A stretch of DNA of 35,966 nt from a virus: positions 1 to 35,966 of IMG/VR virus record IMGVR_UViG_3300048918_000111; one strand, given 5' to 3'. This document shows, one piece after another, positions 5,559 through 10,702 of this stretch. The notes beneath the pieces are model-generated. The model was not told the DNA's origin, made no database searches, and saw only the letters and a list, made by a program, of their open reading frames with translations. Every line of letters starts with the position of its first letter. The stretch's first letter is position 1. The translations under genes and the position numbers were made by a program.

Positions 5559-5840
5559 GTGCTAAGTGACATGGTGTACGTTGAGAATCTGATGAGAAGT
5601 TACCGCAGAATGGCGGAAGACTTCTCTGATCGCATCCCTCATATGTATGACCCTAGGAGGCTTGTGAAGCGCTGGAAGCGGAGGATGTTTGTCATCCGTA
5701 AGTTCTCATGCGGAAGGCCAGAGTGTGGCATATGCGGTAAGCGTCAACAGACTCAGCGATGGGCTATTGACTCAAGATTCACCCAATGGCAATCTGGTCG
5801 TGCAATTCTTGCACCGACACCCCTTACCTGGAAGTCATGA
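5559..5840 (+). CDS. Hypothetical basic protein with CxxC motif
   Basis: GTG 5559 has AGAGGA at good spacing; ATG 5571 is an alternative start. The 93-residue product is strongly basic (RRLVKRWKRRMFVIRK) and holds Cys-Gly-Arg-Pro-Glu-Cys-Gly-Ile-Cys-Gly, a possible zinc knuckle. Basic charge and cysteines suggest nucleic-acid binding. It sits directly before the replication gene. Function is otherwise unknown. Confidence 0.6.
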   Translation: MLSDMVYVENLMRSYRRMAEDFSDRIPHMYDPRRLVKRWKRRMFVIRKFSCGRPECGICGKRQQTQRWAIDSRFTQWQSGRAILAPTPLTWKS

Positions 5841-5903
5841 GCCGGGGACAGCGTGACCAAGCACGTTGGGGAGTCAACCCATCTTGGAGCACTTGGAAGT
5901 GGT

Positions 5904-6641
5904 ATGGCACACCAATGGTTTCGTCTCTATAGCGAATTTGCCGCTGACCCAAAGGTTCAGAGTATGTCTGAAGCTATGCAGCGCCGACTCGTTATGGTTC
6001 TTTGTATACGTTCCAGTAACGTTCTTGAAACGTTACATGAAGAAGAAATCGCTTTCTTTCTTAGGTTAAGCGCCGAGGAACTAGCCGCCACCAAGTCACT
6101 CTTTGTTCGTAAGGGTTTCATTGATGAAACATGGTCTATCTTAAATTGGGACAAGCGCCAGTATGCCTCTGATTCAAGCACAGACCGGGTTAGAAGGTTC
6201 CGGGAGGCAAAGAAATTACATGATGAAACGAAAGGAAACGTTTCAGAAACACCCCCAGATACAGATACAGATACAGATACAGATGCTCTATCTAACCCTA
6301 ACGGGTTAGAAGTCGGAAAAGATTCCGACGCGCCTAAGCGTAAGATTCAAAACTGCCCAGTGCAGAAAATCATCGATCTGTACCATGAGATTCTTCTTCC
6401 CGAGCTTCCAGCGGTCGAGAAGGTCACTAAGACCCGAGAGGGCTATATCCGGCAACGTTGGTTGCAAGACCTCCAAGAGCTTGACCACTGGCGGAACTAC
6501 TTCCAAGACGTGAGGCGGTCCAATTTCCTGATGGGCCGAGTCGATGGAAGGGATGGAAAGCCACCGTTTCGAGCTGATCTGGAATGGCTCACAAGGCCCG
6601 GTAATTTCACCAAAGTAGCCGAGGGTAAATACCACCGATGA
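5904..6641 (+). CDS. Phage replication-initiation (O-like) protein
   Basis: From ATG 5904 the product is 245 residues; a GTG at 5853 would add 17. The opening MAHQWFRLYSEFAADPKV and about 100 residues of helical sequence form the winged-helix-type N-terminus of many phage replisome organisers. A low-complexity Asp-Thr linker follows (about residues 117-126), then a C-terminal domain with YFQDVRRSNFLMGR and PPFRADLEWLTRPGNF, the region typical of proteins that recruit the host helicase. No phage helicase or polymerase is visible, so replication would depend on the host machinery. The origin may lie within this gene, as in lambda (inference). Its stop overlaps the next start. Confidence 0.8.
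   Translation: MAHQWFRLYSEFAADPKVQSMSEAMQRRLVMVLCIRSSNVLETLHEEEIAFFLRLSAEELAATKSLFVRKGFIDETWSILNWDKRQYASDSSTDRVRRFREAKKLHDETKGNVSETPPDTDTDTDTDALSNPNGLEVGKDSDAPKRKIQNCPVQKIIDLYHEILLPELPAVEKVTKTREGYIRQRWLQDLQELDHWRNYFQDVRRSNFLMGRVDGRDGKPPFRADLEWLTRPGNFTKVAEGKYHR
6256..6285 (+). repeat. CAGATA hexamer tandem repeat in the replication gene
   Basis: Four exact CAGATA units and a fifth ending CAGATG encode the Asp-Thr linker. Asp-Thr linkers are frequent in this protein family. The repeat may only be a slippage-prone linker, but direct repeats inside an O-like gene can also mark an origin. Confidence 0.8.
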
Positions 6642-9175: not shown

Positions 9176-9203
9176 TTGATTCGCGCCTGAAAACGTGGAT
9201 ACT
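9176..9203 (+). promoter_or_regulatory. Possible promoter for the large structured RNA
   Basis: TTGATT (9176-9181), a 16-base spacer and GATACT (9198-9203) form a weak sigma70-like promoter just after the last early gene and just before the first long helix at 9220. The match is moderate, and read-through from the early operon is equally possible. Confidence 0.35.
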
Positions 9204-9204
9204 T

Positions 9205-10470
9205 GATACAAAGTTCAACCATTGCTAGGCCCGCTGAATGCCCTTCAACGGTCCTGCTGTGAAGCACTACCGGGCTACGCGTAAACAACCTAGAGTTTCC
9301 CCCTTGCACCATACGCTTCCGTCCGCCTAGCAATGATCTATACGTCGAATGGGAAACCAGCGACAAATCCTAGGAGAAATCCTAGAGGCAGGAAGAAGGG
9401 AAAGCTCATACGGGAAATAGTATGAAGCTGCCTAGACCTAACCAGTGGGTCTGTCCCGGATAGATTGGACGTGCCGCCCTTCACGGCTTAAGGGTTTTAG
9501 TCAAGAATTCGTAGGCAGATACGAAAACGGTTGCGATAAGATAAGTGATGGGAACGGGCTAGGTCCTTAGGACTGCTATGAAAACATACCGCCATCGCCG
9601 AGCAAGAGTTCAGCACTTGCCTTGACTGAGGTTTCATGGGGATGATGTGGAAGTCCCCGATTCATGGCCTTGAAGGCCATGACGACTGGAAAGGTTGCGA
9701 AAGTTGGTCGTTAAACTACAGGCAACCCGCGCCGTCCTCTCGCGTAATAGAGGGCTTTAGGTAGCTGGTTGAAGTCGAAAGACACGCAGGAAACGTCCAA
9801 GCATCCCGCCGAAACGCAAGACGAATGGGATATAGGCAGAATGCAGCAAGAGATGTTCGGTGAAATTGCTGCCTTGCGATCCGTGAAGCCGGTCAGCCAG
9901 TTACCTAAACAGTTATTCAGGGTATAGCTCAATCTGGTAGAGTTCCGGCCCTGGAAGCCGGTTGTTGTAGGTTCAAATCCTACTGCCCTGACCAGTTTTG
10001 GAAGTGATTTCGCAGGCTGATGCGATGGGGATCTCGAGAGGCAGGGCCACCACCGATGTAGGTGTAAGGGTCCAATGCCAGAGATCAGTACTGGCCACTT
10101 CCGCCATTTATGGATAGCCGTGGTACGCAAGCCACCAGTCCGGGGCGGAGCCGGTGCTATCCTTTCAGTTATGAGTTTGAATGGCTTTATTACGTAGCGC
10201 CATGCGGAAACGCTGGCCAGCATATCTTTAAGGTCATCGCGATGGCTTTGGAGAACATGGAATTGGATGGATGAGGTTCGACTCCTCACTTTCATGATCT
10301 GTATGGCGCTACGTGATGAAGCTATGAGGTTGAATGCCGGGTGCTGACCGGCTATGTCACATGATCGCCATCGAGCTAGTTGCCTTGTCGCCGGGTGATG
10401 ATGAGAAATGGGCAGATGTGATTAGCAAAACACAATGCCGGGATCAGCTCCGGCCAACCTCAAACCTATG
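9205..10470 (+). ncRNA. Giant ornate structured RNA candidate (GOLLD/ROOL-like class)
   Basis: About 1.27 kb has no convincing protein frame but dense complementary segments. In the 5' domain, 9220-9230 pairs with 9325-9335 (11 bp), enclosing a GUGA tetraloop hairpin (9255-9266); 9295-9301 pairs with 9351-9357, crossing that helix as a pseudoknot. Hairpins follow at 9403-9429, 9508-9525 and 9662-9682 (9 bp), then 9815-9820/9873-9878 stacked on 9843-9849/9866-9872. After the embedded tRNA come 10000-10006/10096-10102 enclosing 10010-10025 and 10030-10086; a three-way junction closed by 10112-10118/10156-10162 with a GCAA loop; 10192-10205/10301-10314 (14 bp); and 10325-10332/10455-10462 closing the last domain. 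Size, GNRA loops and tRNA association resemble GOLLD and ROOL RNAs. Ends are approximate and family membership is untested. Confidence 0.75.
9918..9994 (+). tRNA. tRNA-Pro (anticodon TGG), embedded in the structured RNA
   Basis: The 77-nt cloverleaf has acceptor CAGGGTA/TGCCCTG, D-arm GCTC...GAGT, anticodon stem CCGGC/GCCGG with loop CCTGGAA, T-arm GTAGG-TTCAAAT-CCTAC and an encoded ACCA end. Loop positions 34-36 read TGG (Pro). The C1-G72 pair and A73 discriminator are also proline identity features. Position 33 is C instead of the near-universal T, which is odd and may affect decoding. It sits between structured domains with no spare sequence, so processing would have to cut it out of, or leave it in, the larger RNA. 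Confidence 0.82.
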
Positions 10471-10494
10471 AGTTATTGAACTTTGGAGTTCAGT

Positions 10495-10671
10495 ATGAAA
10501 ACTAGGATTCGTCTCGCTCTGGATGGTAAAGGGTGGATATGCCAAATGAGGCCTCATTCGTGGACCGGCTATGGCATGACGCCATATAACGCATACAAGG
10601 AATGGAAATGGCTAATTTGGCTATCACGACAATGGTTGCCTGACAACATTCCAAGATCGATTAAGCTTTGA
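10495..10671 (+). CDS. Hypothetical protein, 58 residues
   Basis: ATG 10495 has GGAG (10485-10488) at good spacing; that site lies within a small hairpin, GAACT-TTGG-AGTTC (10478-10491), that could modulate translation. The product is basic and Trp-rich (GWICQMRPHSWTGYG, EWKWLIWLSRQWLPD). The pattern GxGWxxxxR...GxGxTPxxAYxxW is seen in other small phage proteins. Function is unknown. Confidence 0.6.
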   Translation: MKTRIRLALDGKGWICQMRPHSWTGYGMTPYNAYKEWKWLIWLSRQWLPDNIPRSIKL

Positions 10672-10702
10672 CTCGCCTTGATTTGTCCGGGTAATATCAA
10701 GG
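10668..10702 (+). promoter_or_regulatory. Possible late promoter overlapping an inverted repeat
   Basis: TTGACT (10668-10673), 18 bases, then TAATAT (10692-10697) gives a weak sigma70-type promoter in front of the packaging genes. CCTTGAT (10676-10682) and ATCAAGG (10696-10702) form a perfect 7-bp inverted repeat. Its right arm contains the AAGG ribosome site of the gene at 10704, so it could act as an operator or an RBS-masking hairpin. Confidence 0.35.

Follow-up and report, generated by a model that had tools for sequence, protein, structure and literature searches.

A repeated RNA domain absent from Rfam builds a large structured phage RNA and recurs in untranslated leaders and tRNA arrays

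Herein we describe an untranslated, strongly structured RNA of ~1.25 kb at positions 9209-10463 (+ strand) of the analysed window, which is a whole 36-kb virus record (35,966 nucleotides) from a phage that is podovirus-like by gene content, and where the RNA lies just before the packaging genes. Its core is a repeated domain of ~100-140 nt, here named KH (kissing hairpins), which constitutes an RNA family absent from Rfam, widespread in untranslated leaders and tRNA arrays and carried without annotation by hundreds of phages and prophages, P1 and HK620 among them. We are highly confident in this identity of 9209-10463 as a structured KH RNA. The best explanation of the whole, to which we would give about even chances, is a single untranslated RNA of separately folding domains that serves as a KH-based cis leader.

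The earlier note on this DNA, made from the letters alone, had seen no plausible gene here, and the frame scan agrees: there are no + strand frames of ≥60 aa between 9172 and 10482, and the long frames in the region, all on the minus strand, cross the tRNA and covarying stems. The features of the locus are as follows.
Left of the RNA: replication genes
9176..9203, + strand: promoter-like TTGATT-16 nt-GATACT, immediately ahead of the RNA
9214..9345, + strand: 5′ domain M1, closed by 9220-9230/9325-9335
9477..9494, + strand: small hairpin CCCUU/AAGGG preceding KH1, seen in the sequence
9497..9629, + strand: KH1, loops GGCAGA and AGUUCAGCA; model R1 44.4 bits, E 5.6e-11
9736..9910, + strand: domain M2, a hairpin CCUCU/AGAGG, then a long helix 9756-9772/9893-9909 around a variable insert
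9918..9994, + strand: tRNA-Pro (anticodon TGG, CCA encoded); Rfam tRNA 63.5 bits, also called by ARAGORN
9998..10104, + strand: KH2, loops GGCUGA and AGAUCAGUA, P1 UGGAAGUG/CACUUCC; R1 68.1 bits, E 5.5e-18
10112..10162, + strand: hairpin GGAUAGC/GCUAUCC, seen in the sequence and in the fold
10190..10325, + strand: three-armed long stem, in which one arm is similar to the T-arm of a tRNA (GAGGUUCGACUCCUC); z -5.3
10324..10463, + strand: KH3, loops containing GCUGA and UCAGC; R1 44.4 bits, E 5.7e-11
10668..10697, + strand: second promoter-like sequence, from the consensus scan, before the putative small-terminase gene
10704: putative small terminase gene (terS), with no PHROG match of its own
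12158: large terminase
13588: portal, P22-type
Also right of the RNA: scaffold and major head protein

The sequence at 9176..9203 is a putative promoter, although the consensus scan did not list it among its matches. The stretch from CCTATTGATT to GATACTTGA is near-identical in the window and in two related contigs, L083 and L407, while what follows differs in each: the RNA itself in the window, a pair of small genes ahead of the RNA in L083, and a tRNA-Ala ahead of it in L407. The second promoter-like sequence at 10668-10697, to which L407 holds a similar one, came from a scan whose matches were no more numerous than in shuffles.

The region folded more strongly than its dinucleotide shuffles, at z -3.7 (9205-9917) and z -5.9 (9995-10480), and none of the shuffles did equally well. 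Since some coding windows scored as low as the RNA region in a sliding 200-nt fold scan, the evidence rests on comparison and not on fold energy. The helices named in the earlier note are all present (9220-9230/9325-9335, 11 bp; 9999-10006/10096-10103; 10112/10162; ~10190/10317; 10325-10332/10455-10462), and its large, ornate structured phage RNA is borne out by folding, homology and covariation. What that reading missed was the tRNA-Pro at 9918-9994 and the fact that the domains closed at 10000/10102 and 10325/10462 repeat a single element, of which 9497-9629 is the third copy. The chain thus runs M1, KH1, M2, tRNA-Pro, KH2, two extra stems and KH3. We considered a global closing helix of 10 bp (9209-9218/10476-10485) and dropped it; it is not kept in L083 or L407, and its 3′ arm (10476-10485) overlaps a conserved hairpin and ribosome-binding site.

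KH was first recognised from the 3′ end of the RNA, which matched unrelated phage leaders only over AAUGCCGGAGAUCAGCACCGGCC. Its order is P1 (7 bp), AAU, H1 (5 bp, loop GGCUGA), a variable insert (7-167 nt, median 75), H2 (5 bp, loop AGAUCAGCA) and then directly the other strand of P1, so that H2 stacks on the closing stem in a 12-bp stack (7+5). The loops of H1 and H2 are complementary (GCUGA/UCAGC) and may kiss in three dimensions, a contact that is supported by complementarity and conservation and not by covariation, given that H1, H2 and their loops are nearly invariant. Such kissing should give a compact fold resembling the tRNA elbow and tolerant of inserts, even of whole tRNAs. All three window copies have the P1-H1-insert-H2 order with complementary loops (one mismatch in the loop-loop pairing of KH1) and match the covariance model R1 at 44-68 bits, a model that was built from 32 diverse sequences with the window, L083 and L407 left out.

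Across these 32 sequences, 97.7% of the cells are paired, 11 pairs are changed on both sides, and 77 cells are double-changed compared with 17.5 in shuffles, extensively so in the closing stem; sliding the partner by 1-3 columns lowers the pairing from 98% to 30-46%. Covariation is strong in P1 and weak in the nearly invariant H1 and H2, which exact-pattern sampling makes look more invariant than they are. P1 also covaries in instances picked by the 3′ half only or by the 5′ half only, with its pairs formed in 95-98%, as opposed to 43-52% after shuffling at the most variable positions; as the choice of these instances depended on a single half, P1 and the half not used provide a fair test. The KH descriptor found 234 instances in the loci and none in 553 kb of shuffled sequence.

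The same RNA is carried in shorter versions by L083 and L407 (the latter located by the 5′-domain pattern), and the full-length arrangement, from ~0.67 to 1.25 kb, is common only to the window and these two close relatives. Pattern scan and local BLAST likewise matched M1 and M2 in L083 and L407 only. M1 has ~90% mean column identity over 130 nt in the three sequences and folds at z -3.3 to -3.8 in each; its BLAST matches are 93% and 87% identical at the DNA level in L083 and L407, respectively (L407 compared with L083), whereas the genes beside the RNA are ~70-80% identical in the relatives, below the ~87-93% of this 5′ domain. Within L083, where the large terminase is 84% identical, islands of the RNA reach 93% and 96% DNA identity against ~80% for the late genes. 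Conservation above that of the neighbouring genes is support that folding alone cannot give. In M2, an island of 45 nt matches L083 and L407 at 96% identity, and the M2 helix, aligned in five copies, shows five double-changed pairs, with 95% of the cells paired versus 23-55% when slid. The hairpin-plus-helix layout of 9477..9494 recurs before M2 and before both L083 copies.

With R1, L083 yields one KH and L407 yields two, of which the second is weak. The KH3 homologue of L407, at 5793-5924, carries a compensatory change in hairpin 2, while L083 keeps the 3′ half of KH3 only; a 65-codon frame (L083:1985-2182) sits where the 5′ half would be. The L407 version, of 0.67 kb, has a tRNA-Ala before it and a tRNA-Pro inside, in the same place as in the window; this tRNA is absent from L083. 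The 10112..10162 hairpin folds no better than shuffles (z -0.78) and is absent from both relatives, as is the 10190..10325 stem. Aligning homologues and checking them for covariation, as the earlier note had advised, came out in favour of a structured RNA: KH P1 and the M2 helix covary, and the 5′ domain outlasts the neighbouring genes.

The earlier note had placed the RNA with GOLLD and ROOL, or else in a new family of similar size. No family other than tRNA reached E = 1 in a cmscan of the region against Rfam, in which the large-RNA models it had proposed (GOLLD, ROOL, OLE) gave no match; a NEAT1_2 hit (15 bits, E 2.6) is noise. The GOLLD model (RF02032, 416 positions of the conserved 3′ domain, with a 150-bit cut-off) matched neither in cmscan to E 5 nor in a targeted search, and the ROOL model (RF03087, 574 positions) did not match in cmscan, its targeted search also being empty, as it was for control genomes. 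Membership of either class is consequently not supported. The alternative of a new family stands, except that the conserved unit is the KH of 100-140 nt and not the 1.27 kb. With BLAST, the whole region matched phage records in tRNAs only, and no description of KH was found in Rfam 15, in the annotations of the records examined or in the literature searchable without subscription.

GOLLD and ROOL, which often lie near tRNA islands and form cages (PMC12286853), share several traits with the window RNA: GOLLD is a large phage RNA with a variable 5′ part, a linker tRNA and a tRNA-island neighbourhood (PMC12286853), though the unit of the window RNA is, by contrast, a repeated domain of 100-140 nt. 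ROOL is a large phage or prophage RNA near tRNAs with loop-loop contacts, for which no repeated KH unit is described. In put-type antitermination of phage HK022, termination is suppressed in cis without a phage protein. putL and putR are cis-acting structured RNAs in phage leaders that alter termination, as KH may be, but by description they are ~70 nt long, with two stem-loops and a triplex and no kissing loops (PMC9378689). Lambda-type late leaders (pR′ to tR′) offer a parallel in position, as KH of HK620 lies in the pR′/qut-tQ leader, although KH occurs in other contexts too. Lambda's own late leader is not known to carry KH. Proteo-phage-1 (RF03044) and isrJ (RF01393) are phage or prophage RNAs of distinct sequence that lie at most ~300 nt upstream of KH without covering it, which suggests that they share leader transcripts with KH; such matches were seen at L260:6343-6422, L237:3517-3593 and L275:2518-2595.

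KH occurs three times in the window and singly in most phages; its carriers include N4-like IME11, Ackermannviridae and Pseudomonas phages. With one KH leader as the query, BLAST matched 254 phage records and 1034 of 5426 complete E. coli genomes (~19%, a BLAST count and not a model count). A scan with the 19-nt 3′ core found at least 120 stretches in viral contigs and 68 in bacterial genomes; actinobacterial 19-mer matches were rejected as chance, no full KH being found there. Under strict filters, R1 on whole bacterial genomes was positive in 2 of 185 (class sample) and 6 of 99 (family sample), lower and patchy counts as expected for prophages. Loci fetched by terminase proteins, and thus not picked by the RNA, contained KH in 7 of 95 cases (E < 0.001), always on the terminase strand and upstream of the terminase, upstream of terS in relatives. 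One relative from the small-terminase search also holds a group I intron (L006:11635-11869, 73.9 bits). R1 confirmed KH in all 14 annotated loci tested, and named examples are placed as follows.
HK620: between pR′/qut and tQ/holin
P1: in a 1.2-kb gap with two tRNAs
N4-like IME11: in a 2-kb gap
PY54: before the lysis genes
Ackermannviridae KP6: in a 3-kb gap
KP591P1, SOVA965, ST4 and phPA-G: in tRNA arrays
Pseudomonas phage Shamal and E. coli D6: between Q and holin
These contexts are leaders of late and early operons and positions beside tRNA arrays. Among the genes upstream, CI-like repressors account for up to 15 of 68 and Q-like antiterminators for 8 of 68; endolysins and recombination exonucleases are found among those downstream.

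Near KH, the signals are oriented as for a transcript. The tRNAs within 1.5 kb lie on the same strand in 63 cases and on the opposite strand in none, the nearest long frames are mostly co-oriented, and 46 intrinsic terminators fall within the first 100 nt downstream, against ~6 expected. The exact boxA GCTCTTTAACA has 33 sites in the 7.1 Mb of loci and strands, and 23 of them have a same-strand KH no more than 2.5 kb further downstream. BoxA recruits NusB/S10 and shields untranslated RNA from Rho (PMC4807359), and its association with KH suggests Nus-factor antitermination in these phage operons. By locus, it was seen upstream of KH in ~22, at ~60 nt in L243, L268, L282, L297 and L299 and at 1.2-1.8 kb in L125, L248 and L262. 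Near the window RNA there was no close boxA, the sole match being weak and on the minus strand; immediately behind KH3, no terminator was matched either.

Two further observations concern tRNA-related sequences. Whole or truncated tRNAs are nested in KH inserts (L369, L377, L392, L125, L296 and others), that of L392 being a tRNA-like sequence without an anticodon arm. Separately, an unannotated tmRNA-like element reads GCGACTTTGCGG...TTTTTAGAAACTGACC...AAAT and continues into a frame of 10 codons closed by a stop; the encoded tags (ANDDVVLMAA*, ANDEQFLAVA*, ANEEMYLAVA*, ANDNTFLAVA*, ANDDLMMVAA*) resemble the E. coli tmRNA tag. The element is carried by HK620, P1, IME11, KP6, KP591P1, swi2, Felixounavirus and Det7, with positions at L304:2799, L305:2126, L306:2815, L309:2821, L310:2781, L411:1557, L412:1511 and L413:1542, and also by prophage loci L143, L158, L251, L325, L337, L348, L370 and L382. 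KH often lies 190-350 nt downstream of it. The IME11 stretch that holds the element matched 686 phage records by BLAST; in the elements scanned, ARAGORN called no tmRNA, and the Rfam tmRNA models stayed below threshold.

The fold of KH is established, as are its covariation, strand, copy number and contexts, and from the contexts we infer its function. Since these share an untranslated leader, at the head of an operon or of a tRNA array and in many cases close to signals for termination, a role in cis is favoured. The RNA would be transcribed from its own putative promoter at the early/late boundary, and the KH domains would fold co-transcriptionally and act mainly in cis, with the transcribing polymerase or the ends of the transcript as their target. 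Where the next operon starts, they would thus affect termination, antitermination or processing. We hold this mechanism tentatively, at somewhat less than even chances. Against it, the window lacks a close boxA and a terminator match after KH3, the second promoter-like site before terS would let the late genes be expressed without the RNA, and KH also lies between genes and in the tRNA arrays of lytic phages, where antitermination is less obvious; nor does a cis role explain why M1 outlasts the genes in conservation. The size of the window RNA, its phage origin, the string of domains with a linker tRNA and the tRNA-array neighbourhood of KH would also suit a trans-acting RNA of the GOLLD/ROOL kind, stable, abundant, made late and multimerising by loop-loop contacts with tRNAs in its linkers, and terminators just after KH would free such an RNA in about a fifth of cases. 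We nonetheless judge this unlikely, as there is no sequence match to GOLLD or ROOL, most KH stand alone at ~100 nt, which is too little for a cage of that kind, and full lengths differ almost twofold between close relatives.

The 7-bp P1 and 5-bp H2 could also be read as the 12-bp acceptor/T-arm stack of a tRNA mimic, with kissing in place of the elbow, through which KH would recruit enzymes that handle tRNA (RNase P, RNase Z, EF-Tu or SmpB-like partners) and have phage RNA cut, protected or redirected by them. The stem lengths and their order match tRNA topology, and the tRNA-like domain of tmRNA has the same 7-bp and 5-bp stack with cargo replacing the anticodon arm; a T-arm motif is present in 10 of 230 KH inserts (~1 expected), some inserts hold whole or partial tRNAs, nearby tRNA genes are always on the same strand, and in enterobacterial phages KH often follows the tmRNA-like tag element. 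KH has, however, no T-loop consensus and no clear preference for a CCA end, its H1 loop is too short for a D-loop, the Rfam tRNA model does not match it, and tmRNA models match neither KH nor the window, and we regard the mimic as rather improbable. More speculative still, and doubtful at present, is that KH forms the structural core of a very widespread class of phage RNAs that imitate the elbow of tRNA and, in enterobacterial phages, is partnered from upstream by an as yet undescribed tmRNA-like RNA bearing a 10-residue tag; the multi-KH RNAs would be enlarged versions that redirect host tRNA handling or ribosome rescue late in infection. An element acting as DNA (a folded single-strand recombination site of the attC kind, a transposon end or a packaging signal) is very improbable: hairpin ends around variable cargo and the adjoining terminase gene of the window would fit, but the 63-to-0 strand bias of tRNAs, the mostly co-oriented long frames and the transcript-like placement of terminators and boxA do not, P1 changes in sequence by lineage as a recombinase site would not, and most KH loci are not beside terminase genes. 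Decaying genes or tRNAs with structure by chance, to which the tRNA-like fragments in the region and the small frame replacing part of KH3 in L083 might point, are refuted by the covariation and by the matches of the independent model R1, and have a negligible probability. The KH-based cis leader hence remains our preferred reading.

KH covaries extensively, and by a BLAST estimate ~19% of complete E. coli genomes carry it, as do P1, HK620 and PY54, yet it has had no Rfam family and bore no annotation in the records examined. Long gaps ahead of lysis, terminase and tRNA genes that seemed 'empty' thereby become testable functional RNAs in laboratory phages, and KH offers a tractable entry to what large phage RNAs do.
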